Shown piece by piece: positions 1 through 64,000 of a DNA stretch of 64,000 bases (positions within the stretch are counted from its first letter, which is position 1; the number at the start of each line of letters is the position of its first letter). The notes under the pieces were generated by a model. That model saw only the letters and a program-made list of their open reading frames with translations, did not search any database and was not told the DNA's origin. The stretch covers positions 4,455,501 to 4,519,500 of the forward strand of contig CP126204.1 in NCBI GenBank assembly GCA_030272155.1, given 5' to 3'. The DNA comes from Tetradesmus obliquus (Eukaryota > Chlorophyta > Chlorophyceae > Sphaeropleales > Scenedesmaceae). The position numbers and the translations under genes are program-made.

Positions 1-3000
1 CTGCCGTGCCGCACCTGCAGCGCGTTGCTGAAGCTGGGCGCCTTGCCACGGTTGCGCATGTCCTCGGTGATCATGCGCAGCACCACCTGCTTCAGATGCG
101 TGTAGGTGGCAAAGCGCTGCAGGCGCTGCACCACGCTGCCCTGCAAGGGTGGGGTGATGAAGCGGCGGCGCAGCATCGGGCAAACAGCATACGCAACAGG
201 TTGACGGTTAGGAACAAAACTGCTTCATAGCTCATGCCTGCAAGCAGTACAAGAGGTTGAACACAGGGCACTGCACAAGCTGGCCAACACAGCTTGGCAT
301 GCAATCAGAAGCAAGCCAGAGCCATGTGCTGCCCACACACGCATCTACACAGCGCCACATGATGTCAACCAGTTAATGCTGATGTTGCTCAACACCGCAC
401 CTTGAGCGGCATGTCGTTGGCCGCGCCCTCCACCGCCAGCCAGGGGTGCTCCAGCGCCTCAGCAGCGCTGGGCCGCAGCACGGGGTTGCGCTGCAGCAGC
501 CGCTCCAGGAAGTCGCGCGCGGCGGCGCTCAGCGGCTGCAGCTCCGGCGCGTCCCAGTCGATCTCGTTGGACAGGATGGCCTGCAAGTGGTGAGAAATGT
601 GACGAGATGTCATGTTACATGACAGATAGCGTAGGCCCGCGGAAGGGCTCAGCCAGCCAGGGGGAGCAGGGGAGTGAGTTGGGTGGCACCCAAGTGGAAA
701 CAGATAGCACAAGACAGTAAGCAGTGGTTGAGGCATGACAATGGAATGGGCCTAGGGCAGCACACCAGCCGTTCTTGCAGCAGAGAGCCTCTGTGTTGCA
801 AGCAGTGCACTGCAGGGAGTGCTGAAGCCCATCAAGCCACTAGCCCTCCCCGTCCCTTGCTAATCCCTCCTCTCAGTCTCTCTCCGTCACACTCCCTCTC
901 CCTCTCTCTCTCACTCTCTCGCTCTCACTCTCTCGCGCTCTCTCCAGCCGTCACCAACCCCACCTGCGTGCGTAGCACCAAGCTTGGAGTGTGCACCAGC
1001 TTTACCATCCGCGGGCCATGCTGACGAGGCCCCCTGCGCGAAAACCAGCGGTCAACCCGCAGCGCCACCCGCACCACACCCAGCACCAGCCAGCGCAGCG
1101 CATTCTGCAGCGCCACGCTGGCAGCACACCGCAGCAGCCAGCGCGCAGCACGCAGCGCGTGCGCTGACAGGCTGAGCCGCGGCGGCGGCGGCAGCTGCAC
1201 CGCAATCACCACGGCCGGCAGCGAGGTGCTGCCTGAGCCCTGCTGCTGCTTGACCACACTCTCCCCTCCTGCTCCTCTTACACTCCCGCCACTCTTGTCA
1301 CCCTCGTCACTCTTGTCATAGCTGCACACCTTCCACACGTCGCTCAGCGTCTCGTTGCGCACGTCCTCCCAGAAGGGGAAGCGCCCCGTCAGCAACTGGT
1401 AGCCCAGCATGCCCACGCTCCACAGGTCGGCCTTCTCGTCGTAGCACTGCATCACCAGCTCGGGCGCCATGTACGCCGGCGTGCCTACACATGCACGGCG
1501 TACAGCAGCAGCAGCAGTTACAGAGGCAGCAGGTGCAACCATACACAACCACACCGGCCAGTTTTTTTGTCGCAGCACTGCATCACCAGCTCGGGCGCCA
1601 TGTACGCCGGCGCGCCTGCACATGCACAGCGTACAGCAGGAGCAGTCACAGCAGCAGTAGCAGTCATACACAACCACACAGGCACGCTTTCTCATCGTAG
1701 CACTGCATCACCAGCTCGGGCGCCAAGTACGCCGGCGTGCCTGCGGCAGCACAGCATACAGCAGCAGCAGCAGCAGTCACAGCAGCAGCGATCAGATACA
1801 GTCACAGGCAGCCTTGCGTTGTAGCACTGCATCACCAGCTTGGGCGCCAAGTATGCCGGCGTGCCTGCGGCAGCACAGCATACAGCAGCAGCAGCAGCAG
1901 CAGTCACAGCAGCAGCAATCAGATACAGTCACAGGCAGCCTTGCGTTGTAGCACTGCATCACCAGCTCGGGCGCCATGTATGCCGGCGTGCCTACAGCAG
2001 CATTTGTAGCAGACCGCAGCAGTAGCAAGCACAGCACTGAAACACAGCCAGAAAATGATGCCAATGCATGCACGTGGCACAGCATCACCGCCTCAGGCGC
2101 CATGTACGCCGGCGTGCCTGCGGCAGCACAGCATACAGCAGCAGCAGCAGCAGCAGTCACAGCAGCAGCAATCAGATACAGTCACAGGCAGCCTTGCGTC
2201 GTAGCACTGCATCACCAGCTTGGGCGCCATGTATGCCGGCGTGCCTACAGCAGCATTTACAGCAGACCGCAGCAGTAGCAAGCACAGCACTGAAACACAG
2301 CCAGAAAATGATGCCAATGCATGCACGTGGCACAGCATCACCGCCTCAGGCGCCATGTACGCCGGCGTGCCTGCGGCAGCACAGCATACAGCAGCAGCAG
2401 CAGCAGCAGTCACAGCAGCAGCAATCAGATACAGTCACAGGCAGCCTTGCGTCGTAGCACTGCATCACCAGCTTGGGCGCCATGTATGCCGGCGTGCCTA
2501 CAGCAGCATTTACAGCAGACCGTAGCAGTAGCAAGCACAGCACTGAAACACAGCGAGAAAATGATGCCAATGCATGCACGTGGCACAGCATCACCGCCTC
2601 AGGCGCCATGTAAGCCGGCGTGCCTGCAGCCCCGCCAGCAGCAGGGGTGGCGACATAAGCTAGCGCAGCAGCAGCAGCCGCAGCAGCAATCATGCACAGC
2701 TCACGATGCCTGGGGGCAGCAGCATAAAGTCTGATGATCATCCAGGACTGCTGCAACTGCTACAACACTGCCAATGCAGACACGTGTCCAGCCGGCTACA
2801 GCTGGCTACACACTGCCTGATGTTTGTCAACCCTGCCGCCCGCACCTGATCTGCTGGTGAGCTTGGGCTCGTGCGAGTAGTGCCGGATGGACAGCCCAAA
2901 GTCGGTGGCCTTGAGCGGCGAGTCCTCCTCCGGCGTCAGGAACAGGAAGTTGTCCGGCTTCACGTCACGGTAGATGATGCCCTGCGGGTACATGATTGGC

Positions 3001-4937
3001 AGTCGACAAGCACAGGGCAAGCGCAACAGGGTCAACGAGTGTGGTGCACACAGCTGGGACAGATGGCAACTCGTCTGGCTGCCATGTGCTGCCCACAGGC
3101 CCCCAAAACTGCACTGCCCCCAGCTTCAGCCACACTCCGCGCCCGCCCACCTTGGCGTGGCACTGCGCGATGAAGCGCAGGATGCTGCGCACAAGGGAGC
3201 TGATGTAGCATTTTCTGAACACCCACTGCACAACCCTGTCATGTCCAGCTGCTTCTGGCCCCCACCTTGGCGTGGCACTGAGTCTTGAAGTGCAAGATGC
3301 TGCGCACAAGGAAGCTGATGTAGCACTTCTGAACACTTACCGCTGCCAACCCTGTCATGCCCAGCTACTGTGTGTCCCTCACCTTGGCGTGGCACTGCGC
3401 AATGAAGCGCAGTATGCTGAGCACGAGGAAGCTGATGCAGCATTCCGAAACAATCACCACTGCACAACCCTGTCATGGCCAGCTACTGTGTGTCCCTCAC
3501 CTTGGCGTGGCACTGCGCGATGAAGCGCAGGATGCTGCGCACGAGGAAGCTGATGTAGCGCTCGCTGTAGCGGCCGCTCTCCACGCGCTCCAGCAGCGCG
3601 CCGCCTTCGCACAGCTCCATGACCATGTGCACGTTCACGTCGTCCTCAAACACGTCGTGCAGGTGTACCGCGTTGAGCGACACGCCCAGCTGCTGCATCA
3701 CCTCCACCTCAGCGCGCAGCTTGAGCAGGTACCTGTGCGGCGCAGATGTAGTGCAGCAGGTGATAATCCAATTTGCCAGGTCTAGGTGACATGGCCAACC
3801 ATGGCTTACAGTGAAAAACCCAGGGGTGGCCGATACATGTATGGCAACAAGCTGCGCCAGGCGGTCCCCTGCAACCGCTGCTGCACAACCGGCCAACTTC
3901 ACACCATCATTCCTGTGCCACTGCAACCGCCTGCAGCTGCACAGCTGCACACGCGTCTCACCTAGGTGTTGGTGCACCGCGTTTGGGCACTTTGCTGACA
4001 GTCTTGACAGCAAACCGGCGCCCCGTTGACACCTCAATGCCCTCCCGCACCACGCCAAAGCTGCCTGCACCGATCACTCGGCCCAGGTAGTACGAGTCCA
4101 GCAGGTTCCTGCAAGCAGCAGGCGCAGCAAGCAACAACCAGTTGCAGGGAGCAGGTCCAGGCAATCATCGCATAACATGGCAGGCAGCACACAGTGTGAT
4201 ACCAATGACAAAAGAGTAGTGGATCTGGTGACGAGTCGGGACAACGCAAGTATAGCAGTCTTGCAGTTTCCTGCAGGCAGAAAACAGCTGCAGACAAGTT
4301 TCCTGCAAGCAGAAACCGCTGCAGGCTTACACTCCTGCAAGCAGGCTGCGCACACCAAATGCTTGCCAAAAGGCAGCAAACTGGCAGAGAACAAGCTTAC
4401 GCTACCACTGTTGGTTTCCACGTGCGGCTATGCCTGCACAACCACAGTGAAGTTCACTGTAGTCACTGCTGCGTGCCCACAGGCGAGCGGCTGTCTTCAA
4501 AACATCGAAATTGCTGTGTTGGTCAACGCAGGTCCAGCTGTTGCTTGCACTGCTTGCAGGAAAGCCTGCTGACGACGCTCCAGATCTCAGCCACATACAT
4601 CGGCTCGCACTTTATGCCTAGCATCAAAAACAAACTTTGCAGGGCTCTGCCAGGCTCACCTGGGGTAGCCATAAACACTCTTGATTTCTTCTGGGTCCAG
4701 TTCTGTGCGAGCTGGAAGTTTCAATACTCCCTCATCGCTGGCTGTTGCAATGTAGTCTAGCGATGCCGCTACACGCACTGCTGCTGTCCTGCCACTGCTG
4801 CGCCTGCTGACCGCGCGCCTGGCAACTGCTGCTGCAGGGCAGGGCCGCGGCGAGACAAGCCTGCCGCTGCAGGCCCTGCGCCTAGTGCTACTGCCCTGCA
4901 GTGCTTGCTGCTGGCCTAATAAGGGGAGGCCGCGCAT
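1..4937 (-). CDS. CDPK-type Ser/Thr protein kinase, 5' part (C-terminus beyond window)
   Basis: Seven exons on the minus strand join in phase: 4937-4660, 4108-3962, 3732-3501, 2981-2846, 1484-1330, 580-401 and 140 to beyond base 1. All kinase motifs are visible: glycine loop GAGSFG, FAVKTV lysine, C-helix Glu in [11 protein letters not shown], catalytic loop YRDVKPDN (Tyr replaces the usual His), TDFGLS, and GTPAYMAPE. The last exon reads [18 protein letters not shown], which resembles the autoinhibitory junction before the EF-hands of calcium-dependent kinases; the EF-hands would lie outside the window. The first exon (ATG at 4937) is Arg/Ser/Ala-rich and looks like a plastid transit peptide, so plastid targeting is possible but inferred. 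A different calcium/calmodulin kinase is the alternative. Introns 3 and 4 carry arrays of partial exon copies, listed separately. Confidence 0.85.
1570..2640 (-). repeat. Array of activation-loop exon copies in kinase intron 4
   Basis: Nine degraded copies of the 5' edge of the kinase exon at 1484-1330 lie upstream of it on the minus strand, near 1605, 1730, 1853, 1978, 2104, 2228, 2354, 2484 and 2607. Each encodes a version of [15 protein letters not shown] preceded by a TAG or CAG acceptor. Two subtypes alternate, one ending in the sense of PELVMQCY and the other PEAVMLCH, giving a higher-order unit of about 253 bp between about 1930 and 2600. Only the copy at 1484 continues into the rest of the kinase domain. 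Confidence 0.92.
3149..3440 (-). repeat. Copies of kinase exon 3 donor edge in intron 3
   Basis: Three further copies of the exon 3 end (sense of [13 protein letters not shown] followed by a GT donor) lie downstream of the real exon end at 3501, near 3381-3440, 3263-3315 and 3149-3210. The spacing is about 115 bp. Here the donor side of an exon was multiplied, the mirror image of the array in intron 4. Confidence 0.9.
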
Positions 4938-5524: not shown

Positions 5525-8500
5525 ATGTCACAGTTTGCTTACCTGCACCAAAAACAAGCAACAGTTGTAGGTTATCACTTTGTTAATGCATTTCTTCTTA
5601 TCTTAGCCCGCATCGCTCGTTCCCTGCCTCACCTAGAGTCCCTGCCATCTCCGAGACGAACGCCCGTGCAGCTCAGACGCAGCATGCAAGCAAACTGCCA
5701 ACAAATTAGGCATACATTAAGTAGCAGACCTGAGGCCTTCACTCAGAAGTTACGCCAGCAGGTGCGAGCAGCGTCTTGTGTCCTGCTGCTGCTGCTGCTG
5801 CCGTTGCCACCACAGCAGCTGGGCCTCGCACTCTCCATGTCTGCTTACACTCTCGTGCATAATTGAAATCTATGATTGTCGTGACTCATATTCGTTGTTC
5901 TGTCAGCACAGCCCAATGTGTGCCCAGCACTGCACAGAAGAGTGCCGATCGTCACCTATTGCATCTGATCAGAAACAACTGCGACTGCTGTGTTGCACAT
6001 GCAGCCATTTGGGCCCCACTACTCGCAGGCCCGGCAGCGCAGATCTTGTGTGCAGGTTTCAGCAGTCAAGAGCGCCAAGCGGCTCAAGTATGCAGGCATA
6101 GGCCAGCGGGCAGTGCATGATCCGCTTTTTGTCAGTGTGCAAGCTGATGGCAGCGACGCCTGGAGGCTGGAGCCGGTGATACAGCTGCTGAAAGATGGAG
6201 GGGTGCGTGCGGCATCGTCTTCTTCACCCCGTCCAACAGCAGCAGGAGCAACAGCAGCAGCAGCAGCTTCAACAACGGTCATGCCCATGCCATGTTCATA
6301 GCAGCAGAGCTGGGCAGCAGAGGAGTGCAGGTGTGGGACCCGGGGCTGGGGTTCTGCTGAGGATTTCCCTCCCTCCTGTTTGCAGGTCGGCATCATCCCT
6401 ACAGACTCGCTGCCAGCTGTGGTGTGTGACCTTGAGAACCGCACTGCAGCGCTCAAGATGTATAACGCGATGGACCTGGCCCCCAAGAAGCAGCTCAGCA
6501 TACTAGTGGGCAGCTTCAACGACATTAGCAAGTGAGCGAGATTGGAACACTTTCTCATAGGTGCCATGCTGACAGGCAGCTGTGCAACAGCAGCGGCGTG
6601 TGCTTCGTGATTCAGTCTATGCTATCGCTGGCGCAGCAGCTGGAGCAGAGGTGGTGCGTATGTGTTGCGTGCCGTGGGCTGTTTTCTGGGCAGGGCTGTA
6701 TGCTATGGTGAATCTTACTCCTCTATAGCTGCTCAGTTACCGGGTGGAGCCCAATGACTCCAAGATTCGTTGCAGCCAAGCAGTAGCTGTTGTCACAGTA
6801 GTGACAGTGGTGGCAGCTGTATGTAGGCCTGCTGGCCGCATCCACCAGCATGCATCTTATGTGTGTTGGGGCCGCAGTGCAGCGCACTATAACACCGATG
6901 CCTTTTCGCCTGTACTTTGCCCATACTGCTGCTGCTGCTGTTTCTGTGCTGTGGCGCTGCTCAGGTATACGGCTGGCTTCCCGCTGCCAACGCAGGCTGG
7001 GCAGGCAGACCTGTTCAGGATGGCACAGCGGCTGCTGCCAGGCCCCGTGAGTCGCCACATGCAGCAGCAACCTGTGGCTCCTGCATGTGCTGCCCTGTCA
7101 CTGGCAAACAATCGTCTGACACATAGCAAGTCATGCGCGTGCAGTATGTGTACTCTGCTCATGCTCTTGCATGATGACTCATCCACCACCGCCAAACACC
7201 ACAGCTATGCTGAGCTATACACACACTCGGTGTGTAAGGCTTAGTGCTAGCCTGCTTGCATACATCAAACTGCAAAACGCTCCGTCAACACCTGCTTGAC
7301 AGCTGTAGCAACAAGCCTGCGTTGTGTTTGCTTGCTTGCGCCTGTGCATGCAGTACACGTTTATCCTGGGCGCCAGCAAGAACCTGCCCAGCCAAGTGGT
7401 GGACTTCCGCAAAGGCAAGACGCGCCAGCGCAAAAGCGTGGGTGTGCGCATGCCGGACGACCCAGTCTGTAGGGTGCGTGCTGTGCGGCTGCGCTGTTTG
7501 CACTGCGTGGGCTTGGCATGTCCAGTGCAGGTGCAGTATCAGCACCTGTGAAGTGTCTGCTTCACAGTCACAGCCAGCCGAAGGTGCACTCAGCTTGTGG
7601 CTTTACGTGTGACGGTGACTCTCGTGACGCAAGCATTTGCCCCAGCATGCTGCAGCGAGGTCTGGGAGGTGCTCACTAAAACTAACGCAGTCCACACAGC
7701 AGACGTTCCCCGCAAGGGTGCAGAGATGTCTGTTAGGAACGCATAATATAGGGGCCGCCTGCAGCATGCGGCTGGCTGCTCCATACATATGCCGTGAGAG
7801 CACCTCACCTGTCACCTCCCTTCTCTGCCACTGACCCCTCGTTGCTCACTCCTGCTTGTGTGCGATCGCTGTGCTTGGATTTGTTTCAACATTTGTTGCC
7901 AAAGTGTGTGTGATAGCATTCACACATCAGCCATAACCTGCATGGCTGCTCGAAGCAGGCTATCACATACATCCCGCTGCAGCTCGCGTTGCTTCTGCAG
8001 CACTGGCTGCCTGCTGAGCCACAGCACGCCGTGGATGAGGCGCTGGCGCCACATAAATAGTCACACATCCAATTCGATGCCCATTACACTGCCATTGCAG
8101 GCAGTGCTGCAAGGGCTCGGTGGTTGCCTGCTGAGCCACAGCACGCCGTAGACGAGACGCTGACGCAAAATGAGACTTCCCCCATCTGAACTGACGCTTC
8201 TCACAATGCCGTTGCAGGCAGTGCTGCAAGGGCTCGGTGGTTGCCTGCTGAGCCACAGCGTGCACGTGGATGAGACGCTGGCGCGACATAAGACTTCTGT
8301 ACACTTCACCCATCTGAACTGACGCTTCTCGCAATGCCGTTGCAGGCAGTGCTGCAAGGGCTCGGTGGTTGCCTGCTGAGCCACAGCGTGCACGTGGATG
8401 AGACGCTCGGGGCAGAGACTGAGGTGCCAGACCCCGGGATGCTCATGGACATGTACGGGCAGAAAGGGCTTGACTTCATAGTAGACACGGGCCGGCGGAC

Positions 8501-14160: not shown

Positions 14161-15099
14161 GCCATCAGGCCTTGTCCTGCAAGCCTTCACAGCCCACAAC
14201 ATAGATGCTCCCATCATTTCAGAGCTTCCACCACAGCACCTGACACCACTCACCCTCTCACACAAAGGAGAGCTGCGCGGAGTTGCAGCGGTCAACGCTG
14301 CCCTGTTACGTTTGACCAACCTGCGGAGCCTGAGCCTGTCCCACGCATCCCAACCTCATGACGCATTAAGCGATGGCTTTTTGGACAACCTTTTTGGTGC
14401 GCCAGCTTGGACGCTGAGGCGCTCCTCGTGGGAGGCGCAGGATGACGCCTGCTTGAGCTGTGACGCGCTGCTGCCTGGCCTGGCAGCAATGCAGCAGCTG
14501 ACACGGTGAGGCAGCAGCAGCAGCAGCAGCACGTTTCCGGATGCAACGTGGCATGCTTGCTTGCTGTGCAGCCGGCAAGGAACAGGTGCAACATGTTGGC
14601 GTGAATATGTGACTTGTTAGGCGCAGCTGCGTAGACGTTGCAGTCAGGGTGGGATGCACATGATGTGCTGATGTGCTGCTGCCTGGCCTGGCAGCGATGC
14701 AGCAGCTGACACGGTGAGGCAGCCTTCATGTCACGTGCCGTTGGCTCCTTGCTCAGGGTTCCTTCCTTCTTTTGCTGAGTGGAGTATGTACGAAGAATGC
14801 AGGCGATATCATGGCCTACTATACAGCTTGCTTTGTGGTATTGCACTGTGTTGCACTGACTGCACTGCAACCCCTTAGGACCGGTTGGTGCCAATGTCAA
14901 CATTCGTCAGTCACCTGTTACTAAGCAGTGTGTGGCTGCTCCTCTTTTCAACATGTTGCGGCAATACCCACAGGCTGCAATGCAGCCTGGCTGATGTGCA
15001 AGCCACAATTGCCTGCTTGCCGCTTCTTGCTGGCCCTCCAGCCACGTAACATGCTGCTGCCGACAGTCTATTCCTGCCTTTGCTGCGCCTTCCTATCAA

Positions 15100-17219: not shown

Positions 17220-18287
17220 TCACTTCTTCCGCCAGGCGTCAAACTCGTGCCAGCCCTCAGCTGCTGCAGCAGCAGCTGCTGCAGCAGCAGCTGCCGCAGC
17301 TTCACCTGTTCCATCAAGATCTGCTTCACTGATGCTGCAACGATCCAGAATGACGCGCTGCAGCTGCGGCAGCCCAGAGACAGCTGCTGCTAGCATCCGG
17401 TTGCCCTCTGCTGCTGCTGCTGCTGCTGCTGGCTCCTCCTCAGCTCCCAGCTCCAAGATTCCCTGCTGCATGAGCCGCACATCCCGCAGCACCAGCACCT
17501 GCAGCCTGGTCAACTGCTTGATGACATCAGCCAGCTGCTCAGCTGTCACATCAACAAAATCAGGGTTTTTGATCACCAGCCGCGTCAGCTGTGCTGCTTG
17601 TGCCAAGTGGTGCAGAACATACTCTGCAGGTAGCCCTCCGTCGCCGCCTTCATCGCCGATCTCTAAGCTCTTAAGTGCGGGCAGCTGCCCAAACGCCTCT
17701 GCTGCATCAAACATGTTGACATCCCAGGCGTAGCGCAACGCAATGCTGCTCAAGTTGGTGAGTCTGCGCAGCTGCGTGAGCTCATAATATGGCGTAGTAG
17801 TTTCCCACAGGCGCAGCTCTGTCAGGTGCTGCAGCGGCAGCAGCGGCTCTGTGCTTGTGCAGTTGCCCGCGTGCAGTACCCGCAGCTGCGGAGGCAGCTC
17901 TGTGCCAGACACAATGTTGTTCCTGCATCGGATGACAGCCAGCAACAGCAGCAGCATTAAGTAGCGTGGACCTTTGTGAAGTGCTAGCTGTGCACGGGAT
18001 GCTGGATGGTTGCAGCAACATGGCAGCAAGCCACAGAACCAGAGCACAGCGGGCAGCATTGACAACTGCACATGTGCTGCAGCACGTAGAGTACATGCTG
18101 ACGGCGTGCGTGAGGTAGCAGTAGTGCAGCATTGCTGCAAGCTGCACAGAATAACCAAGGCCCGACAGCACAGCTAGCACACCCCTCAAGCTGTCACACA
18201 GCGCAGTCACTGGGCTTCCCGTGATAGCAGAGCTACTCGGCCGCCGGTAACAGCACACACTACCCACCCGCAGTCCAAGAGTGTGAC

Positions 18288-18295
<8 letters not shown>

Positions 18296-18353
<58 letters not shown>

Positions 18354-18356
18354 GGT
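18296..18356 (+). repeat. (CTG)n run in LRR copy B intron 2
   Basis: About 20 CTG triplets (with one TTG) lie between a shadow copy of the exon 2 donor edge and the real exon 2 end. Confidence 0.9.
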
Positions 18357-18554
18357 AACAGCACACACGACTCACCCGCAGTCCAACAGTGTGACACTTG
18401 TCAGGTGGCCCAGTGGCAGCTGCTGGCCGTCATGTGGGTTGAACTCTGTCATCGGGTCATAGCCTCCGCCCACAAACAGCTTCAACTGCAGCAGCTGTGC
18501 AGCCTGCAGCTGTGTCAGTCTTGCTGCATCGTATACGCCTGACAGGTCAAGCCT

Positions 18555-18598: not shown

Positions 18599-18916
18599 GC
18601 AGCGACAGCAGCATGTTTTGTGTCAGTGGTATGGGACTGATACAGCAGCATGTGAAAACAATATAACACACTCCACTTCAGCAGCGCAGTGTTGCACAAG
18701 AATTTGATGGCGATTCTCTATATAGCTCTGGGCGCAGCACATCAGAGCTCGGCGCACACAAGCCCCCACATACTCTTGCACACAGCTGCTGCCAGCAGCG
18801 CTGCGTATGTGTATGCACCCCATGCCTCATCCGCCCTTGCTCAGCTGCTGCCAGCACCAGCCACCTCACCGTGTCAGCTGCTGCATGGCTGTCAAGCCAG
18901 GCGGCAGCCGATCAAG

Positions 18917-24774: not shown

Positions 24775-24827
<53 letters not shown>

Positions 24828-25161: not shown

Positions 25162-25196
<35 letters not shown>

Positions 25197-36650: not shown

Positions 36651-36654
36651 AGCG

Positions 36655-47394: not shown

Positions 47395-50300
47395 TCAATA
47401 GCCATAGCCACCGTAGCCGTATGGCGGATACTGATGGTGGCCGTAGCCGTAGGGTGGCGGGTGCACGCCGTAACCGCCATCCCCATAACCACCAGCAGGG
47501 GGAGGCGGGAAGCCATAACCGCCGCCATGCTCATGATGGTGATGATGGTATCCGCCACCCATCGCTGCTGCTGCTGCTGCTTCATCCCCGCGTGGCATCT
47601 TTTGCATAGGGCCATTCGCATAGCCCTGCCACGGGTCCGCAGGCGCGCCACGCTTGCGCGCCGCATCAGCAGCTGCTGCTGCTGCCGCTGCTGCTGTCTG
47701 CTTGCTGCTGCCGGGCGCTGCTGCCAGCGCGCTTGCAGGAAGCATGAAGAGCTTGTTGTGCCGCTGCTGCACTGCCCGCAGTGTTGCCACGTCAGCGTAC
47801 ATGTCAGCAAACTCCACGCTGCGCTTGCTGAGCTCTTCTAGTGCCTCATCACTCAGCACCTGCGCTGCCGGTGCTGGTGCTGCTGCTGCTGCTTCTTGTG
47901 TTGCTGGTGCTGCCGTACCGTCGGCAGCTGCTGCTGCTGCTGTGGCATCCTGCTCAACCCCATCTGCAACTGCTGCATCTGCAGCCGCTGCTGCTGCATC
48001 GCCGCTGCCGCCCTCCTTGCCGCTGCAATTATCCTCACCGCTGCTCTTGCTATCACTGCTGCTGCTGCTGCTGCTGCTGCTCTTCTTCTGCGCCAGTGCC
48101 TGCTCATACAGAGCCAGCACTCGGGCTACCCTGTCATCCCCAGGCAACGTCTCCTCAAAGAATAGTGCACCCTCCCAAAGTGCTTGGCAGGCTGGGCTGG
48201 CTGCCAGGCCTTCCTGCAGCACCTGCCTGGCGCGCTCCACATCACCATACACCTGGGGACGAGCAGCAGCAGGGGCAGCAGGGGCAGCAGCAAGAGGGGC
48301 GCCACATGACATTGCAGTGGGTTGCAAGCGTGCATGTCCGGCACCTACAGTATCGATCCACCCCCACAGGCAATTGCTTAATACTTCCAACATGGAGTTG
48401 TGTCTTATATATCTGACGCTTTGCGCATAACGCCGGCAGCTCACGCGCATCCTAATGCCTGGTGAGAGCCTGCACTTCACAGTTGAACTCAAATCTGCAC
48501 CCTTACGCTGCCAGCCCCGAATCCACATACATATCACTGCCACAAGCAAGCATACCAGCACACCATCAACCTCACCTGCCGCAGGAAGTTGGCATACAGC
48601 AGGCTAAGGAAGCCCGCCACACTGCTGCTGCTGCTGCTGCTGCCCTTCTCCCGCTCCTGCTGCAGCAGCTCCTCAAAGAGTGCTGCTGCTGCTGCCGGCT
48701 GACCCATGCGCCGCTCAAAGTTGGCTGCAGCCAGCACCACCTGCACCAAGCGACGCAACAGCAGCAGCAGCAGCAGCAGCAGGTCCGTAAGACGGTAAGA
48801 GACAGCAGCAGCGGCCTCTTCATACTGCGATTACATGTGCTGCTGTTGCGACTGCACACCTTCAGCGGGAATGCTGCTGGTGCTGGTGCTGATACTGCTG
48901 CTGGTGCTGGTGCTTCTTCTTCTAGCTCTTGCAGCACCCATAACACACAGACGACACACGCACGACATGTACAGCTGCTGCAGCTGCTGCTGCTGCTGCT
49001 GCCTTTGCCAGCCCTTCCTGCTCACCTCCAACAGCCCTGGCGCAAGCTCGCTGAGCACCCGCCTGTATGCTGCCCGTGCAGCATCAGCATCACCGGCCGC
49101 CTCATGGAAGCGCGCAGCAAAGACAGCCAGGTCTGGCCGCCGCTTGCAGTGCACGGCTGTTGCACGCGCCAGCACTGCTGCTGCTGCCTCCGGCTGGTTG
49201 GCTTCACACCACAGCACGTAGCGCTGCCAGAACTCTGCAGTCACACATGATTTGTATCGCAGTGCAGTGCAGAACAGCAGTATCAGCAACAGCGTCCGGC
49301 TGGTTGGCTTCGCACCACAGCACGTAGCGCTGCCAGAACTCTGCACACACATGATTTGTATCGCAGTGCAGTGCAGAACAGCAGTATCAGCAACAGCGCC
49401 CGGCTGGTTCGGTTCGCACCACAGCACGTAGCACTGCCAGAACCCTGCAGGCACACATGTTTTGTATGGCAGTGCAGTGCAGAACAGCAGTATCAGCAAC
49501 AGCATCCGGCTGGTTGGCTTCGCACCACAGCACGTACTGCTGCCAGAACTCTGCAGGCGCACTGAATGGAGCACAATTAATCACCGTGCATTGCATTGCA
49601 GTGCAGCATCAAATCCAGCATCTGGCGGCTGCGCCCTGCACCACAGCACGCATCGTTCAGTCGTGCTGCAAACTGGTACAACATGAAAACGGCTAGGGAC
49701 GGACAACAAGGAAAGAGAGACGGCCATTCGATGCAAGCAGACACAGGAAAAGGCCGCACCTGGGTAGCTTGCGCAGGCCACGCAGCAGCGCTCATACAGC
49801 CGCACACAAGTACAACAAATATGCTGCACACAGGTATGCTGCGCACAGGTACGACATGGGAAAGGAGGATAAACCCGATGCAAACAAAAAATGACACGGC
49901 CGCACCTGGGTAGCTCGCGCAAGGCACGCAGCAGCGCTCGTACAGCCGCACAGTCAGTCCCAGCTCGCCCTGAGCCTCCTGCCAATCCAAATACGCAGCC
50001 CAGTTGCGCAGCTGCGCAGCATCCAGCGGCTTCACATGCCAGTAGGGCCGCCGGATGGCTGCCTCGTACTGCTGCCGCGCCTGCTGCTGCTGCTTCGTTG
50101 CTGTGTAGACAGCCTCCTGCTGCTGCAGCCAGAGCGCCTTGACTGCGTCGTCGCTGGCTGCTGCTGCTACTGCAGCAGCCGCCTCTGCGGCTGCTTTGGC
50201 GGCAGCTGCTGCTGCCTCTGCTGCTGCTGCACTGGCTGCTGCTGCCGCAGGTGCTGCTGCAGATGCTGCTGCTGCTTCTGCATGAGCTGCCTCAGCTGCT

Positions 50301-52281
50301 TCGCCTGCTGCTGCTGGTGCATCAGCTGCTGCTGGTTGCTCTGCTGCCGGTTGCTCTGCTGCAGCGGCATCTGTCATCTCAGCATCACCGCCTGCCTGCC
50401 CTACCTCAGCAGCAGCAGCATCACCTTCACCAGCTGCTGCTGCTGCTGCTGCTGCTGCATCGCCAGCTTCAACAGCAGCTGCGGCACCATCAACTGCTGC
50501 TGCTGCCTCATCACCACCAGCAGCTGCAGAAGGCTCTGCAGCAGCCGCTGCCGCAGCTGCCTCGGCTGCTGCTGCTGCTGCTGCAGCTGCTTCCTGCTGC
50601 TTTGCTGCTGCCTGCTGCTCCAGTGTGCTTCGCAGCGCTGCTGCTACATCTTCCGGCAGCAGCTCGTGTGCTGTCCTGCTGGCTGCGTAGCTCACCAGCC
50701 TGCAGCACACAATGCAGGGATCAGTGATGCAGCCTGTGACAGATCATGAAGCAGATTCAGCAGGTTGAGGCAGCTTGGTTGCTATGACACTGTCATGAGC
50801 ACATGTGCGCGGGGCGCCTTTCACCTGCACGCCTGATGCAGGATCAACTGAGCCCAAGCAAATGCTTCTGCTGCTGCTGTTGCTGTCGCCTGCCTGTTAT
50901 GACTGAAACATGCAACAGTAGCATCCCGTGCACAGGCATCTGCCCTGCCATTCCTCACCCTGTGTGGTACTTGTCCAGCTCCTTGATGGGGCAGCCCAGC
51001 ACCCTGGCATACAGCGCAGCCACGCTGGCAGGTGAACCTGCGCTGCCCTCCAGCTCAAGTGCCTTGTCCCACAGGCTGCTGGAGAGCCAGTCGGGGCCCA
51101 CATACGCTAGCCCGCGCTCCAGCACGCTGCACATACATTAGCAGGACATTGACAGGCGTGCAGGTGTTACATCGCATCTGGAGGTTGGTTGAAAGCTGAC
51201 ATGTACCCCGCCTCAGCACGCTGCAGAAGCACCGGTTAGGCACTTAACTCACCAGACAAGCAGGTGCAGGTCATGAGCATGACAGAATTGTTGCAGGAAA
51301 GAACGCTCGGCTCTTGCTTGAGGCTTGGCATGTGATTGACAGCAAGCCACATGCGCGGCTGTACAGTGACATGCGCGGCTTGTTTTGGTTGCTGGTCATG
51401 CCCGCCAAAGCCCACCTGCGCACAGCGTCAGTCTCAGCATCAGCCGCCAGCAGCAGGTTGGCATATGCCACCCACAGCTCAGTGCTGTACGGTGTTGCTG
51501 CCACGCCTCGCTCCAGCACTGCTGCAGCTGCCTCGCTGCTGCCGTGGCGCCGTTCTGCCTCTGCGTAGCGCTTCCAGTATCCGTAGCACAGCGGGAACTC
51601 TGCTAAAAACGCATCATATGCGCTGCGGATTTGTTGCACATCATCCTGCAAGCAGAAAGTGGAGCGTAGCAGCGTGAGTGGAGGTGTTGTGAAGCTATGA
51701 GGAGGCATGCAGGCAGAGTGCTGGAAGTTGCTGGGGTGGTTACCCTGTTGTCCTGCAAGTGTTTGCTTGTCACAAGACAGGAAGGGGCTCCAGCTGCTGT
51801 TGGGGCGCCAGTGCCATGATTGGCAGCTGCTGGCCTGCTGGCAAGCAACAGCAGCGCAGCGTCAGCAGCAGCGCGCCCACGCCCATGCCATTCTGCAACT
51901 TGAAGCTGTTCCAAGCGTCTGATACGTTCATAAAGTCAAACAGCGCACCAGCTTCTCGGCTGTGCTGATCAGGCTCGTCCAGGTGTTGAAATCATCTGGC
52001 TTCTCAGTGACAGCCTTGAGCAGCTCCTGGCACCTTTCCAGCAGCGGGTTGGCCGGCTCTGCAGCATACAAACAATGCAATGAGTACACGTGAAGGCGTC
52101 AAACAGCCCTAAACACTGATCGGGTGCCTCAGTTTTTGTAGCCTAGCCAAAGTTCTAGACAGACACAGCTGCGCTTACCTGGGGCCGGTGCTGCTGCCTC
52201 TGTAGCATTAGCCTCTGCCTCCATCGCAACTGGTTCATTGCCTGCAGCTTGATCAGCCGCTGGCTGCTGCTCTGCCTCCAT
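47395..52281 (-). CDS. PRPF39: Pre-mRNA processing factor 39 (U1 snRNP)
   Basis: Eight exons join in phase to 878 residues: 52281-52179, 52058-51949, 51645-51416, 51126-50959, 50699-49906, 49234-49026, 48740-48576 and 48252-47395. HAT (half-TPR) repeats recur, for example FPLCYGYWKRYAEAERRHGS, LWVAYANLLLAADAETDA, LWDKALELEGSAGSPASV, RPYWHVKPLDAAQLRNWAAY, FWQRYVLWCEANQPEAA and FAARFHEAAGDADAARAAYR. RPYWHVKPLDAAQLRNW corresponds to the family signature RPYFHVKPL. PRPF39 is a U1 snRNP-associated factor that helps 5' splice-site recognition. A long Ala/Gln/Glu-rich insert (about 50090-50630) enlarges it beyond animal homologs. The C-terminus is a Gly/Tyr/Pro/His-rich tail (GYGHHQYPPYGYGGYGY), also seen in relatives. 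Intron 5 carries exon-edge copies. Confidence 0.95.
49282..49802 (-). repeat. Copies of PRPF39 exon 5 and exon 6 edges in intron 5
   Basis: Copies of the exon 6 start (sense of EFWQRYVLWCEANQP) lie near 49282-49345, 49395-49455, 49503-49560 and, decayed, 49620-49680, with about 112-bp spacing. A copy of the exon 5 end (sense of LYERCCVACASYPG) lies at 49757-49802. Exon 6 proper starts at 49234. Confidence 0.93.
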
Positions 52282-52640: not shown

Positions 52641-54366
52641 ATGAAAATGAGCACATATCGTTGCAAACATGCTGCCCAAGGTTTGCAAACGCCTGTCCAG
52701 GCCACACACAGGTTGCAACTGCGCGCGCCTGTGCGCCAACAGCAGCAACATGGCAGAAGCGAGCGTTGCGCTAGGCTCAGCACGGTTGCAGCAGCTGCCA
52801 AGAGTGGAAGCAACTCTGATGGAGATGTGTGGCAGCAGCTGAGCAGCATGGCAGACAAGTACATAACCAACACAGCTGTGCAGCGGCAGCGCCAAGGTGC
52901 GGTTGCTGGCAGTTGATCCTGCTGCAGCTGAGCGATGAGTGCACAAATGTGCATGCATGTACATGCTATGCACCAGCACACACGCATGCGAAAAAATTTG
53001 AAAGGCAATCCTTGTGCAGCTCGGCAGGCAGTACACTTGCTGTTGATTGCATTGCTCATACTGGTCTGACCAGTGCCGAGGAAGACTCCTTGATGCTAAT
53101 CTCGTACTCCACACTCATTGCGCTTGCCTGCAGCCCAGCAAGGCCGGCTGCCAGTGCAAGCCATCCACATCTTGCTCTCCACGCTAGTTCTCGTCTGGCT
53201 GGCTGCCAGCAGCAGCAGCCTGCCCTTCGTCTCCCCCAAACTGCTGCTGCTGGACCAGGGCCTCAACAACAAGTGGTGGGCCCCACTCACAGATGCCTTC
53301 TGCAGCGCCAGCGGGCAGCTGCTGGCCCAGAACCTGTTTTTCGGCTACATGTTTGGCCGTGTGGTGGAGAACACAGAAAGTGGCGGCGCGCTGTGGCTGA
53401 CTTACCTGCTGGGCGCGGCAGGTGGGTGTACAGTGGGGCGTACGTTAACAGAGAGGCTGCATTCGGATGCATGCAAGCACGTTGCAACTGTATGTAAGTG
53501 GCAGGCCAAAGGGTGGCGGCGCGCTGTGACTGACGTACCTGCTGTGCGGCAGGTGGGTGTACAGTGGAGCATGTGTGCTTGGCAGGCAACAGGCGAATGT
53601 ACAGCTGCCTCACATTAGCAGCAATGGCCATGTCTGGTTCAGCTGTAAGGTGTGCACACGTGCAGCTGATGGCTTCTCACACAGTCAGGCCCCTGTTCGA
53701 GTTCACAGGCCCAGCCTTGGTAGCAATGGGACATTTCGTAGGGTGGGGCACAAATGGATGCACACACGGTTGTGCAGCTGGCATGCAGCTGTTCTGCTGG
53801 CTGTCTTCTGCGCCAAAGCATGCGAAGCTGCACCCTCACAGTTCTTGCTGTCACCGCAGGCTCTGACACTGCAAACACCTGTCATGTACCGCTGCCGTGC
53901 AGGTGGAAGCGCGGCCGCACTGCTGCTGCTGCCGCGCCGCGCGCCCATCGCTGGCTGCGGCAGCACCGGCGCTGCCTTTGCGCTTTTTGCCATGGCCACA
54001 CTATTCAACAGGCGCAAGACCTGGCACTGGCAGCGGCTGTTTGAGCTGGCAGTGCTGCTGCCGTTTGTGTGCCAGCAGCTGCTGGCTGGGCATGCAGGCA
54101 TGGCCCAATGGTGCCTGTTATATGGACAGAGGCTAGGAGCCTGGGTGCCGTTGCTAGGTGGCCTGGCTGGTGCTGCCGCTGCTGCTGCTGTTTTGGCGCT
54201 GGTGCGGATGCTGGTAGGCAGTGTGGAGCGGCGGCAGCAGCAGCAGCGGCAGCAGCAAGCGGCGGCTGAACTGGCGGGTGGGCAGCAGGGGCCGCCTGGC
54301 GGGGAGGAGAGTATGGCGCTGCTGCTGACAAAGGCGTTGGCGACGATGCTGCGGCGCGTGCTGTAG
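52641..54366 (+). CDS. Rhomboid-like membrane protein, probably plastid and non-proteolytic
   Basis: Exons 52641-52896, 53134-53421 and 53903-54366 join in phase to 335 residues. The first about 60 residues (STYRCKHAAQGLQTPVQATH, then Arg/Gln-rich) look like a transit peptide. Hydrophobic segments follow: VQAIHILLSTLVLVWLAA, LLAQNLFFGYMFG, LWLTYLLGAAGGSAAALLLL, TGAAFALFAMATLF, LFELAVLLPFVCQQLLAG and VPLLGGLAGAAAAAAVLALV. The pattern WWAPLTDAF, then LLAQNLFFGYMFG, then GCGSTGAAFALF matches the rhomboid core, but the catalytic Ser of GxSG is Thr and the HxxxN box lacks the His. It therefore resembles inactive plant plastid rhomboid-like proteins. Activity loss is inferred from sequence only. 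A TGTAA signal lies at 54523-54527. Intron 2 holds one exon 2 end copy (53512-53565). Confidence 0.72.
53512..53565 (+). repeat. Copy of rhomboid-like exon 2 donor edge
   Basis: Repeats the end of exon 2 (sense of GGALWLTYLLGAAG with GTGGGTGTACAGTGG) about 135 bp after the real donor at 53421. Confidence 0.88.
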
Positions 54367-58745: not shown

Positions 58746-58997
58746 CGCTTACCCACCCACCCACCCACCTGCTGTCTACTGACCCGCAGGCGCGCAATGG
58801 CATTTGTGACGAAGGCAGGCCGCATGCCAACCCCGCCAAGCAACAGCAGCAGGAGGCGGCACAGCGCCAGCAGGGCATGCCGCCAGGCGTGTCTGCTGTG
58901 CACTGCGACCTGGGCACAGACTGCAGGGACTGCGGGCCATGGTTTGGTGCCCAGGCGGACAGCAACTGGTGAGCACAGCAACAGCAGCAGGAGCAGC

Positions 58998-59031
<34 letters not shown>

Positions 59032-59492
59032 GTGGCAATGCGGGGCTGCTACGCAATACACTGCAGGAGTGTGGGCCCTGGATTGGAGCACATGCGGAAA
59101 GCGACGGATGAGTAGTGATGTGATGCAGGGTGTGCAGAGTTTGCAGGGTTTGCAGGGCAACAATGCAGCAGACAGGCCATTGCCGACTTTGGGCCAGGGT
59201 TCGGCCGAACGTGGTGCCGCGGCATGCAAGAGACAGCAGTTGCTGAGCACAGCAGCAGCAGGTGCATCAATGCTGGGCGGCTTTTAAACAGCCAAGGGAC
59301 TGCAGGCCCTGGTATGATGCACAGGCTGACAGCAACTGACTTTACTATATGGTGCAGCAGCAGATGCACGCATGCAGGGCAATTGTAAAACATTTAGGCC
59401 CTTTAGAATGAATGTTGTGCAGCTGGCCGTTCATGCACAGCGGCTGCGACTTGAGATCCTGCAAGTGCCTATGTCTGCTGAGCGCAATAGCA

Positions 59493-59544: not shown

Positions 59545-62500
59545 CAGGTCAGAGCCATTGCTGCCAGTGGCGTTCCTTCGCTCGCATAATGTGAGCGTGC
59601 GGGCGCGGCCCACCTCCGCCAATGCCCTTCCAGCCAACTTCAGCTTTGCCTTCACTGACCCCGCACTGGACTGGGACGTGAGCAAGCACGTGCAGCAGGA
59701 TGGGCTGCTGGAGATTGGCATCAGCCAGGTGAAGGTTTACCCTGCAAGTCGAGTGCTGAACCCCAATCGACTTTTGTGCTGTTTAGCCCTGGACAGGAAT
59801 GTGAGCAAGAATGTGCAGCAGGATGGCCTGCTGGAGGTTGGCATCAGCCGGGTGCAGCAGGTTTTACCCTACCAGCTGTACTCTAAACCCTAGGTATTTG
59901 AGCTGGAAGGCCTCAAGTTGACCCTGCCCTGGACTGGGATGTGAGCAAGCATGTGCATCAGGATGGCTTGCTGGAGGTCGGCATCAGCCAGGTGCGGTTT
60001 TGCCTGGTCAAACCTAAACAACAGCTTCCAGCGCCTGAAGCTGACGATTCGCACCTTGCGGCTGGACTCAGTCCTGGACTCAGTATCCCAGTGGGATGTG
60101 AGCAAGCATGTGCAGCAGGATGGCTTGCTGGAGGTCGGCATCAACCAGGTGCGGCTTGAGCCTGAAGAATCAATCCTCAGCCCAATCCTCAGCCCAAACC
60201 TGAAACGGGAACACACGCGTTGGAGCTGGTTTGAGCAAGCGCGTGCAGCTTGGCGGCCTGCTGGAGGTTGCATGTGACTGAACATCTGCTGCTGCAGCCA
60301 CCGTCACCTCCGTTGCTGCTGCTGCTGCTGCTGCTGCTGTTGCTGCTGGCGCCAGGTGTTCTACAAGCTGCTGGCAGGCCGGTGCAGGGCTGGTGGCCCA
60401 GGCGGCCTGGTGGCTGATGTGGGAGCAAACTTTGGCTGGCATGCGCTGCTGGCGGCAAGCTTCGGCTGCAGGTGAGGCTGAAATTGAGTGTTGCCATTTG
60501 CCTGCTTTGCTGCGTGTGTGGGTTGAGCCACCCATCACTGTGGCTGGCATGCGCTGCTAGCGGCAAGCTTCGGCTGCAGGTGCAACTGATGTTGATGTGT
60601 TGACAAGTCAAAGAGAGATGCCTGTTTTGCTGCATGGGTGGGTTGAGCTACACAAATCTGTGGCTGGCCTGCGCTGCTGGCGACGAGCTTCAGCTGCAGG
60701 TGTGTGAGCTAGACAACTAAGGTGCCTGGGTGACGTGTGCGGGCGCTGCGTTCATGAATATTCATGAATGTGGCTGGGTGAGGTGTGCGGGCGCTGCGTT
60801 CATGTATATTCATGAATGCGGCTGGGTGAGGTGTGTGGGCGCTGTGTTCATGAATATTCATGAATGTGGCTGGGTGAGGTGTGTGGGCGCTGCGTTCATG
60901 AATATTCATGAATGTGGCGGGGTGAGGTGTGCGGGCGCGGCGTTCATGAATATTCGTGAATGTGGCGGGTTAGGTGTGCGGGCGCTGCGTTCATGAATAT
61001 TCTTGAATGCGGCTGGGTGAGGTGTGTGGGCGCTGCGTTCACGAACATTCATGAATGTGGCTGGGTGAGGTGTGTGGGCGCTGCGTTCATGAATATTCGT
61101 GAATGTGGCGGGGTGAGGTGTGTGGGCGCTGCGTTCATGAATATTCGTGACTGTGGCTGGGTGAGGTGTGCGGGCGCTGTGTTCATGAGTATTCATGAAC
61201 ATTCATGAATGTGGCTGTTTGAGGTGTGCGGGCGCTGCGTTCATGAATATTGATGAATGTGGCTGCGGGAGGTGTGCGGGCGCTGCGTTCATGAATATTC
61301 GTGAATGCGGCTGGGTGAGGTGTGTGGGCGCTGCGTTCATGAATATTCGTGAATGTGGCGGGGTGAGGTGTGTGGGCGCTGCGTTCATGAATATTCGTGA
61401 ATGTGGCTGGGTGAGGTGTGCGGGCGCTGCGTTCATGAATATTCATGTTGTGGCTGCGGGAGGTGTGCGGGCGCTGCGTTCATGAATATTCATGAATGTG
61501 GCTGGGTGAGGTGTGTGGGCGCTGCGTTCATGAATATTCGTGAATGTGGCGGGGTGAGGTGTGTGGGCGCTGCGTTCATGAATATTCGTGACTGTGGCTG
61601 GGTGAGGTGTGCGGGCGCTGTGTTCATGAGTATTCATGAACATTCATGAATGTGGCTGTTTGAGGTGTGCGGGCGCTGCGTTCATGAATATTGATGAATG
61701 TGGCTGCGGGAGGTGTGCGGGCGCTGCGTTCATGAATATTCGTGAATGCGGCTGGGTGAGGTGTGTGGGCGCTGCGTTCATGAATATTCGTGAATGTGGC
61801 GGGGTGAGGTGTGTGGGCGCTGCGTTCATGAATATTCGTGAATGTGGCTGGGTGAGGTGTGCGGGCGCTGCGTTCATGAATATTCATGTTGTGGCTGCGG
61901 GAGGTGTGCGGGCGCTGCGTTCATGAATATTCATGAATGTGGCTGGGTGAGGTGTGTGGGCGCTGCGTTCATGAATATTCATGAATGTGGCTGCGGGAGG
62001 TGTGCGGGCGCTGCGTTCATGAATATTCATGAATGTGGCTGGGTGAGGTGTGTGCGCGCTGCGTTCATGAATATTCGTGAATGTGGCTGGGTGAGGTGTG
62101 TGGGCGCTGTGTTCATAACTATTCATGAATGTGGCTGGGTGAGGTGTGTGGGCGCTGCGTTCATAAATATTCGTGAATGTGGCTGTTTGAGGTGTGTGGG
62201 CGCTGCGTTCATGAATATTCGTGAATGTGGCTGGGTGAGGTGTGCGGGCGCTGCGTTCATGAATATTCATGAATGTGGCTGCGGGAGGTGTGCGGGCGCT
62301 GCGTTCATGAATATTCATGAATGTGGCTGGGTGAGGTGTGTGGGCGCTGCGTTCATGAATATTCATGAATGTGGCTGCGGGAGGTGTGCGGGCGCTGCGT
62401 TCATGAATATTCATGAATGTGGCTGGGTGAGGTGTGTGCGCGCTGCGTTCATGAATATTGATGAATGTGGCTGCGGGAGGTGTGCGGGCGCTGCGTTCAT

Positions 62501-64000
62501 GAATATTCGTGAATGCGGCTGGGTGAGGTGTGTGGGCGCTGCGTTCACGAACATTTATGAATGTGGCTGGGTGAGGTGTGTGGGCGCTGCGTTCATGAAT
62601 ATTCGTGAACGTGGCTGGGTGAGGTGTGCGGGCGCTGCGTTCATGAATATTCATGAACGTGCCTGCGGGAGGTGTGCGGGCGCTGCGTTCATGAATATTC
62701 ATGAATGTGGCTGGGGGAGGTGTGCGGGCGCTTCATGAATATTCATGAACGTGGCTGGGTGAGGTGTGCATGCGCTGTATTTGGAAAATTTATGAATTTG
62801 TCTGGGAGAGGTGTGCGGGCGCTGCGTTCATGAATAAACATGAATGTGTCTGGGTGAGGTGTGCGGGCGCTACGTTCATGAATATTCCTGAATGTGGCTG
62901 GGTGAGGTGTGCGCGCGCTGACTTCATAAATGTGGCTAGGTGAGGTGTGCACGCTTTGTTAGGATGCGATGCACCCGTATGTGTGCCAATTACGGTCATT
63001 GTCCGGGAATCTTTACTGCAGTATAGCTTTAATATTCATTGAAGCACTTCCCCACACTGCGCACGTGTATGCAACTATCTGACACAGCAGGGCGGGTGCT
63101 TGCAATCCCGTGCCACAGCTGCATGCACTGCTGTCGCATCACCCTGGCACGCAACACATAAAGCATAGCTCTGTGTAACATACTGCCTGGCAAAATACAA
63201 CGGTGCTGCATGCGCATATGCTTTGCAGGTTCATCGCATGGGAGCCAGTGCCGCAGTTCCGGGCGCTGCTGGCTCTCAACCTGGCCCGCAACACACAGCA
63301 CTCTGTTCTTCATACCGCCTGGCAAAATGCAACTGTGCTGCATGTGCATATGCTGTGCAGGGTGATTGCCTGGGAGCCAGTGCCGCAGTTCCGGGCGCTG
63401 CTGGCTCTCAACTTGGCACGCAATGGGCTGAGCCAGCTTGTGAGCGTGCGGCCGGCTGTTGTGGCGCACCCGCCCGGCATCAAGCAGGTGCGGCCCGGTG
63501 TGTTGTAAGGGGGAGGGGAGGGGTGTGGGAGTGGATGGCAGTGCAGGTGCAGTTTGCAGTGGCAGCCGGCTGTTGTGGCCCACCCGCCCGGCAGCAAGCA
63601 GGTGCGAGGATGGGAGGGGCGGGCAGGGGAGCCAGGGGGGTCGTGTTGCATGTATGTAGATGCACCCACCCACAGGGCTGCTACAAGTGCCCTGCAAGCA
63701 GCAACCCGTAGCTGCCAGCAACAACAACACACATCAGCCATCACCTGCTGCGGCTCCACCTTGTGAAATACTGGCTTGCTCACTGCATCAGCGGGTAGGC
63801 AGCTGTTGTGGCGCACCCGCCCGGCAGCAAGCAGGTGCGGCCATGTGCAGTGCAGAGGAGAAGCGAGGGAGGACAGGGCAGGGCAGGGGAGTCAAAGGGA
63901 TGCTGCTGCTACAGGTCTACTTGGCGCAGGCAAGGCAAGGTGTGCGTATCATCACATATGCTGGTGTTGCCAAGGGTCCTGCGCAGGCTGTGGTGGTAAC
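58512..64000 (+). CDS. FkbM-family methyltransferase, 5' part (continues beyond window)
   Basis: Certain exons are 58790-58968, 59548-59728, 60356-60471, 63361-63487 and 63915 to the window end; they join in phase. A candidate first exon has ATG at 58512, but its junction to 58790 could not be phased. The N-terminal part has a Cys-rich motif (RNGICDEGRP, then HCDLGTDCRDCGPW). The catalytic part begins LVADVGANFGWHALLAASFG, the SAM-binding glycine motif, followed by RVIAWEPVPQFRALLALNLA (the acidic residue of motif II in WEPV) and VRPAVVAHPPG. This is the FkbM methyltransferase pattern; such enzymes methylate sugars or lipids, and the substrate here is unknown. Four introns contain shadow exons, and the 2.9-kb intron also holds the 48-bp satellite. 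Confidence 0.85.
59062..59342 (+). repeat. Copies of FkbM Cys-rich exon donor edge
   Basis: Two copies of the exon end (sense of DCGPWFGAQADSN), at 59062-59115 and 59295-59342, follow the real donor at 58968. Confidence 0.85.
59785..60270 (+). repeat. Four copies of FkbM exon donor edge
   Basis: The end of exon 59548-59728 (sense of DWDVSKHVQQDGLLEVGISQ) recurs near 59785-59855, 59920-59993, 60085-60150 and 60220-60270. Most keep a GTGCGG-type donor after CAG or CGG. Confidence 0.93.
60536..60700 (+). repeat. Copies of FkbM SAM-motif exon donor edge
   Basis: Two copies of the exon end (sense of WHALLAASFGC followed by GCAG and GT), at 60536-60581 and 60654-60700, lie just before the 48-bp satellite starts. 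A 5' copy of the next exon (sense of FIAWEPVPQFRALLALNLAR) lies at 63230-63294, upstream of the true exon at 63361. Confidence 0.9.
60735..62900. repeat. 48-bp satellite with heat-shock-element-like palindromes
   Basis: About 45 head-to-tail units of 48 bp, each a multiple of three, so long frames stay open on both strands (plus sense of FMNIHECGWVRCVGAA). Every unit has the palindrome TTCATGAATATTCATGAA or a close variant, first at 60751 and last near 62875. Units come in two main forms, with GGCTGGGTGAGG or GGCTGCGGGAGG next to the palindrome. A block is duplicated at a distance of 441 bp (about 61183-61485 equals 61624-61926). It lies inside the intron 60472-63360 of the FkbM gene. Confidence 0.95.
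63560..63838 (+). repeat. Copies of FkbM exon donor edge after 63487
   Basis: Two copies of the end of exon 63361-63487 (sense of PAVVAHPPGSKQ with GTGCG donor), at 63560-63603 and 63795-63838. Confidence 0.92.

Follow-up and report, generated by a model that had tools for sequence, protein, structure and literature searches.

The window analysed here, a stretch of 64,000 nucleotides of the green alga Tetradesmus obliquus (C14:4455501-4519500), belongs to a genome of 104.66 Mb in 17 contigs with a GC content of about 57%; PMC5966456 gives 107.7 Mb and 57% GC for this species. Among the genes of the window, Pfam names were obtained for a protein kinase, topoisomerase VI subunit B (TOP6B) and a PRP39-like protein. 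The plus-strand gene at 20.8-27.3 kb, tentatively guessed to encode a cyclic diphosphoglycerate synthetase, had no match in Pfam or PDB with the one exon that was tried.

A sequence-only reading of the window had claimed that introns of unrelated genes hold one to nine degraded copies of the adjoining exon edge, consisting either of an acceptor and exon start or of an exon end and donor. Both types were found, and the number of copies was upheld, the kinase array being composed of ten copies with the real edge included. In this text a shadow is an extra edge copy in an intron, R is the alike part of a pair, U is the spacer between the copies, and an array is a series of additional copies of a single exon edge that lie, directly oriented, in the intron beside it. 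Our classifier placed 41 pairs or arrays of the window at an exon edge, some of them overlapping, and 17 of the 41 sit at 36.6-46 kb, in and beside the topoisomerase VI subunit B gene. The features of the window, some in genes resembling leucine-rich repeat (LRR) genes, are as follows.

1438..2630, minus strand: acceptor-type array, 10 copies including the real edge, protein kinase gene (real exon GTPAYMAPE...), unit about 127-131 bp
3146..3559, minus strand: donor-type array, 4 copies, same kinase gene as the 1438..2630 array
8004..8407, plus strand: acceptor-type array, 4 copies; shadow R 0.92 vs U 0.75
14461..14723, plus strand: donor-type pair, LRR-like gene
18240..18398, minus strand: donor-type pair with a CTG run between the copies, LRR paralog
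18866..19053, minus strand: donor-type pair at the corresponding exon end in the inverted LRR paralog
21286..21593, plus strand: donor-type pair
22044..22757, plus strand: two pairs, one called acceptor-type and one donor-type
22906..23085, plus strand: acceptor-type pair, 96% identical
24529..25257, plus strand: acceptor-type array, 6 copies
25274..25450, plus strand: donor-type pair
26279..26763, plus strand: two donor-type pairs
29606..30078, plus strand: pair called acceptor-type, weak, period 423
36619..37071, minus strand: donor-type array, 5 copies
37342..37611, minus strand: donor-type array, 3 copies
37629..38018, minus strand: acceptor-type array, 4 copies
38282..38633, minus strand: donor-type pair
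38942..40290, minus strand: overlapping donor-type arrays of one exon end (VEEMVSAVKAAIQQCCAQLR), TOP6B-like gene
40279..40498, minus strand: acceptor-type pair, TOP6B-like gene
40754..41741, minus strand: acceptor-type array, 5 copies (GDVRVFEGHAF...), TOP6B-like gene
41959..42201, minus strand: donor-type pair, 94%; 4/4 differing codons synonymous
42711..42879, minus strand: donor-type pair
42908..43102, minus strand: acceptor-type pair, 97%, GCAG plus 57 bp of exon; among the few with some flank homology
43428..43795, minus strand: acceptor-type array, 4 copies
43846..44005, minus strand: donor-type pair, 50 bp of exon end plus GT; 5/6 differing codons synonymous
44062..44266, minus strand: acceptor-type pair, decayed; 5/6 differing codons nonsynonymous
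44702..45104, minus strand: acceptor-type copies of KFGLGAKMALIWSKM
45762..45947, minus strand: acceptor-type pair
49186..49562, minus strand: acceptor-type array, 4 copies, PRP39-like gene (exon EFWQRYVLWCEANQPE); spacers (0.98) more alike than shadow edges (0.87)
49729..49952, minus strand: donor-type pair, PRP39-like gene
50058..50502, minus strand: array called acceptor-type, 3 copies, Ala-rich sequence, weak
53380..53570, plus strand: donor-type pair
58925..59338, plus strand: donor-type pair
59663..60702, plus strand: two donor-type arrays (4 and 3 copies)
63107..63606, plus strand: acceptor-type array (3 copies) and donor-type pair

In the ab initio gene models the copied edges appear as repeated peptides, such as GDVRVFEGHAF and VEEMVSAVKAAIQQCC. 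The LRR-like genes form an inverted pair at 13.6-19.8 kb, whose longer matches show about 70-76% identity. Each of the two genes carries a donor-type shadow at the corresponding exon end, and a second pair (18240) is present in one of them only. The ankyrin open reading frame, said to be free of such copies, held only units of about 100 bp inside its coding ankyrin repeats, and these were not assigned to an edge.

Copies of exon edges in their own introns

The gene models were those of a first iteration, in which a coding model from long open reading frames was combined with consensus splice sites, and the edge scoring used the coding table of the next iteration; self-training led the gene finder astray into strings of very small exons, and later iterations were not kept for the gene models. 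Splice sites and frames are ab initio throughout. The repeat scan covered 314 kb at distances of up to 700 bp, with stricter settings than a permissive scan that was dropped for its spurious alignments at 57-65% identity. Twenty-five loci of 10 kb each were sampled, 20 at set positions (1 Mb on every contig, 3 Mb on three) and 5 at random. At 60722-62931 the window carries a 48-bp satellite of about 46 copies with ATTCATGAATATTCATGAAT-like sequence, whose in-frame repeated peptide misleads gene finding, and pairs starting within 60.7-62.95 kb were removed ahead of the counts.

Our results confirmed that exon-edge copies within their own introns are real. With 50-bp probes and a score of at least 20, a match in the own intron was found for 25 of 198 exon ends and 24 of 192 exon starts, and the same probes gave no match in length-matched other introns, reverse complements and shuffles, one exon-start probe reaching 18 in other introns. 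Two points count against the observation, namely that exon-internal probes match their own intron too (3/73 and 6/59) and that the gene models are ab initio. Self-BLAST of the window yielded 128 near direct pairs (less than 3 kb apart, the satellite at 60.7-62.95 kb included) and 2 far pairs, and the repeats are therefore private to each place.

Assigned cases were present in 21 of the 25 sampled loci (83 in total, overlapping ones counted separately) and on 16 of 17 contigs, the single sampled locus of contig 17 having none, which agrees with the claim of a genome-wide process. Part of the assignments is due to chance: after removal of pairs below 78% identity or longer than 140 bp, which kept 110 of 138, an exon edge was called in 78 of the 110 real pairs and in 378 of 1100 randomly placed ones, and the arrays were assigned without such a random control. 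Given assignment rates of 34% for random pairs and 71% for real ones, the genome-wide number of cases, of the order of ten thousand, can be read only as an order of magnitude. The codon, GT/AG and flank counts given below rest on the 78 assigned pairs, or on fewer (71, 72 or 75) where a site or flank was missing.

Other repeats were also noted. A tandem array of 354-362 bp units (about 5 copies, 92% alike) at 33238-35106 has no clear tie to an exon edge, and a 401-bp query from it matched the genome at that place only. A dispersed repeat of up to about 180 bp at 16732-16912 occurs, 71-83% identical and often partial, at more than 30 genome places, and palindrome-like ACATGT/ATGTCAT motifs were seen by eye in several window introns and spacers. 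The sampled locus L022 carries long arrays at 1-3959 and 4086-6039, with 274-bp units (about 14 copies, 95%) and 351-bp units. A mobile element or spacer family was considered and is unsupported, none being found among the seven spacers tested.

Anatomy and decay of the copies

The 314 kb contained 197 fundamental pairs, of which 138 have an R shorter than the period with a spacer U between the copies and 59 are alike over whole units. R is 30-79 bp long in 100 of the 138 spacer-type pairs, and the likeness breaks off within the exon (r 18-112 bp in 78 assigned pairs); on the exon-inner side there was no similarity, the spacer being unlike the exon continuation (flank z -0.1, 75 pairs). The 59 abutting pairs or arrays, 46 of them assigned to an exon edge, have units homologous head-to-tail. 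Replication slippage, one of the causes that had been suggested, is rejected because of the unit length, as periods have their maximum at 100-159 bp (99/197) and only 11 of 197 fall below 90 bp in a scan that allowed periods down to 15. Involvement of CTG runs is rejected because of the spacer composition, simple-repeat runs being present in 16 of 76 spacers (0.211) vs 0.174 in random intronic segments.

The copied blocks tend to end shortly inside the intron: 46 strong donors were located 4-11 nt from the block end, where 11.6 are expected, and 19 acceptors 4-7 nt from it, where 8.6 are expected. The intronic part of R is 0-9 nt in 38 of 78 assigned pairs, with a tail to 40. Such ends favour edge-limited copying, in which a repair or RNA-linked process would insert an exon edge with its splice-site footprint nearby and the spacer would be the original intron end split by the insertion, and so does the finding that all seven spacers tested matched, genome-wide, only themselves plus one local partner. 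Template switching, also suggested for these copies, is possible and stands close to this explanation, which we regard as rather unlikely. Free capture should yield both orientations, whereas the local pairs are direct in 228 cases and inverted in 17, and further, smaller excesses lie deeper in the blocks, both of donors (17 vs 5.8 expected at 20-23 nt from the block end) and of acceptors (17 at 24-27 nt and 16 at 28-31 nt, each vs 8.6 expected).

The decay with distance that had been described was borne out. Identity to the real edge is 0.895, 0.843, 0.799, 0.786 and 0.792 for shadows of rank 1 to 5 (few data for rank 5), and of 42 arrays, 32 have the nearest shadow closer to the real edge than the farthest one and 4 are tied (Wilcoxon p=8e-6). 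The L022 array was left out of the array counts by codon position and rank and kept in the comparisons of R with the spacer. An assembly artefact or collapsed haplotypes would hardly produce a graded decay by rank with old copies at 78-88% identity, nor assigned cases of both types on 16 contigs, and this explanation is extremely improbable.

Splice sites are usually kept, as the sequence-only reading had stated, since GT or AG is intact in 67 of 71 pairs vs 56.3 expected, and in the arrays in 43/45, 32/38, 16/19, 8/10 and 4/5 of shadows 1 to 5. This retention is what would be expected if the copies were functional, as alternative or decoy splice sites under selection, but they are very numerous partial edges that are unable to replace the exon, and their splice scores average 6.2 vs 8.4 for the real sites, the shadow being higher in 15 of 71 pairs. 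The difference rates between real edge and shadow at codon positions 1/2/3 are 0.076/0.075/0.165 for shadow 1, 0.118/0.136/0.217 for shadow 2 and 0.158/0.174/0.271 for shadow 3, the deeper ranks coming from fewer arrays. The increments from rank to rank are nearly even over the codon positions, as in unused sequence, and we consider a function of the copies very unlikely.

Two genes outside the window illustrate which copy is used. A D1-protease gene encodes residues 203-248, 247-300 and 301-361 of PDB 1fc6 with no mismatch over the aligned residues; the molecule name comes from the match, and we take 1fc6 to be the D1 protease of Scenedesmus (now Tetradesmus) obliquus itself. In this gene (L037), the segment at 1773-1866 recurs at 1867-1957 with 80% identity; the start of the real exon is at about 1909 (1fc6 247-300), the preceding exon ends at about residue 246-248 and the next part runs from 301. 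The protein has the segment once, and the upstream copy is therefore absent from it. In the Snu114-like gene of L024, three identical edge copies stand ahead of the exon and only the last runs on into homologous protein; the outer flank is no more similar to the spacer than shuffles are (score 6.0, shuffled mean 5.6).

Origin of the copies

We propose, at about even confidence, that junction-spanning duplicates are renewed time and again from a functional version of the exon before being pushed aside to decay. The first event would be a short duplication, proximal or tandem, that takes in the exon edge with its splice site and sometimes more of the intron. The duplicate would be tolerated because splicing would still use the copy that adjoins the remainder of the exon and leave the mRNA unchanged, as the D1 protease shows for one protein of known sequence. 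Arrays would grow by duplication of the unit of edge copy and spacer, which is seen in arrays with homologous spacers. For the youngest copies the source would be a further functional version of that edge, from which they were renewed or copied through gene conversion or unequal exchange, probably between alleles; we infer renewal because the youngest copies differ mainly at synonymous sites and are usually without detectable intron homology beyond the splice site. Copies displaced outward would fall out of use and decay, their later changes being nearly even over the codon positions.

Ordinary junction-spanning tandem duplication with neutral decay is another explanation, in which edge copies would be over-represented only through constraint on one copy and hence longer detectability. 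It agrees with the real-shadow differences in arrays, where third codon positions differ about twice as often as first or second (70/69/151), and with L020 (3522-3837), where the outer flank is homologous to the spacer (56/66 plus indels, exceeding each of 500 shuffles) and simple decay would suffice. Below 88% identity, 108 of 242 differing codons are synonymous (108:134), near the approximately 40% expected for unused copies opposite a constrained exon, a value of our own derivation from the 25% that are synonymous under random change. The synonymous to nonsynonymous ratio is 39:28 at 88-93% identity and 38:17 in young pairs (at least 93%), and the 38 of 55 synonymous codons in the latter speak against plain duplication. 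In two-copy pairs the differences at positions 1/2/3 number 10/9/39 at 93-100% identity and 36/16/43 at 78-82%.

A gap-tolerant test (p<=0.01) detected homologous intron flanks in 6 of 72 pairs overall and in 3 of 18 young pairs, and some copies, with L020, therefore did begin with an intron flank. No such similarity was detected in 15 of the 18 young pairs, at a simulated power, under an assumed indel rate, of 97% at 95% identity, which drops to 52% at 90%. The intron parts of a 95%-identical duplicate should remain alike and most young pairs show no likeness, which plain duplication does not account for. In shuffle tests, flank similarity was slightly above expectation on the intron side but not on the exon-inner side. 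R also outlasts the spacers even between shadows, with identities of 0.887 vs 0.835 in arrays (0.858 vs 0.805 by our own sum without the large L022 array), and is the more alike in 30 of 42 arrays. Plain tandem duplication with decay is already strained for the young class of pairs, and we judge it improbable.

The few flank homologies, the synonymous bias and the excess of R over the spacer between shadows suggest that the nearest copy often arose recently from a working edge other than the neighbouring edge in its present form. The missing flank homology of most young pairs also favours edge-limited copying, as does an identity that is flat over the edge block (0.901/0.883/0.892 from outer to inner), whereas the homologous flanks of the 6 pairs and of L020 oppose it, and copying alone does not explain the synonymous bias. 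Either renewal by conversion or unequal exchange, probably with another allele, or fresh edge-limited copying may underlie the nearest copies.

Several results weigh against renewal, apart from the loss of power of the flank test at lower identity and our own derivation of the 40% expectation. The flat identity shows no crossing-over gradient and speaks against simple crossing-over inside the block. Among the 18 young pairs, one or more are flanked by a CTG run and had no power to show homology, and the frame of the pair at 22906 seems misassigned by eye, frames and splice sites being ab initio. Differences between shadows still favour third positions (0.120/0.133/0.178), more strongly than would be expected of entirely neutral copies. 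In 12 of 42 arrays the spacer is at least as alike as R, and the inverted LRR paralogs are without clear concerted evolution (52/55 and 40/43 within, 38-39/43 between). In a further and doubtful reading, a process in this alga would copy exon edges hardly beyond the splice-site footprint, with a different functional version of the exon (another allele or a transcript) as its source, and introns would grow outward as a conveyor belt of retired splice sites.

Comparison with known systems

Minisatellites undergo concerted evolution, in which head-to-tail units expand and get homogenised. Head-to-tail homologous units are found here too (59 abutting pairs or arrays), but likeness persists in the exon edge, with greater divergence in spacer and outer flank, and a working exon is among the copies. 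Exon duplication with mutually exclusive exons, in which a whole exon would be doubled together with its two splice sites, does not fit, as the alike part stops inside the exon and there is no similarity on the inner side. Introners (PMC9860276) likewise reshape introns genome-wide, but they are dispersed families, whereas the seven spacers tested here are unique, matching only themselves plus one local partner, and the window has only 2 far pairs; an introner was accordingly rejected.

If the proposal is true, the arrays would be a concrete and datable source of intron growth, with the retired exon edges of each array standing in order. Among the five green algae of Table 1 in PMC5966456, T. 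obliquus has the longest mean intron, 462 bp vs 230-302 bp. The arrays would also offer very many natural tests of how the spliceosome chooses among near-identical competing sites, and gene finders are liable to call false exons in them, as our own models did.

No description of genome-wide exon-edge arrays in introns was found among the matches listed (titles and abstract openings, with subscription journals mostly outside). Donor and copy lie within 5 kb, as in repair-mediated proximal duplication (the repeat scan itself reached 700 bp). A 2009 study (PMC2671141) reported proximal duplications with a median of 147 bp, including 4 partial exon/intron donors among 824 human cases, which were found through interrupted transposable elements with tandem copies excluded. 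Those duplications are similarly short and nearby, sometimes include exon/intron junctions and have filler or microhomology at their breakpoints, whereas the exon edge is here the main target, in direct orientation and with apparent renewal. In the potato RNA-dependent RNA polymerase (RdRp) case, according to PMC4974935, a new intron arose in one gene; it is alike in that a local duplication included the splice junction and left alternative splice sites behind. In T. obliquus, by contrast, the spacers are not copies of the exon continuation, and existing introns appear to lengthen, at most sampled loci and in graded arrays of multiple copies.

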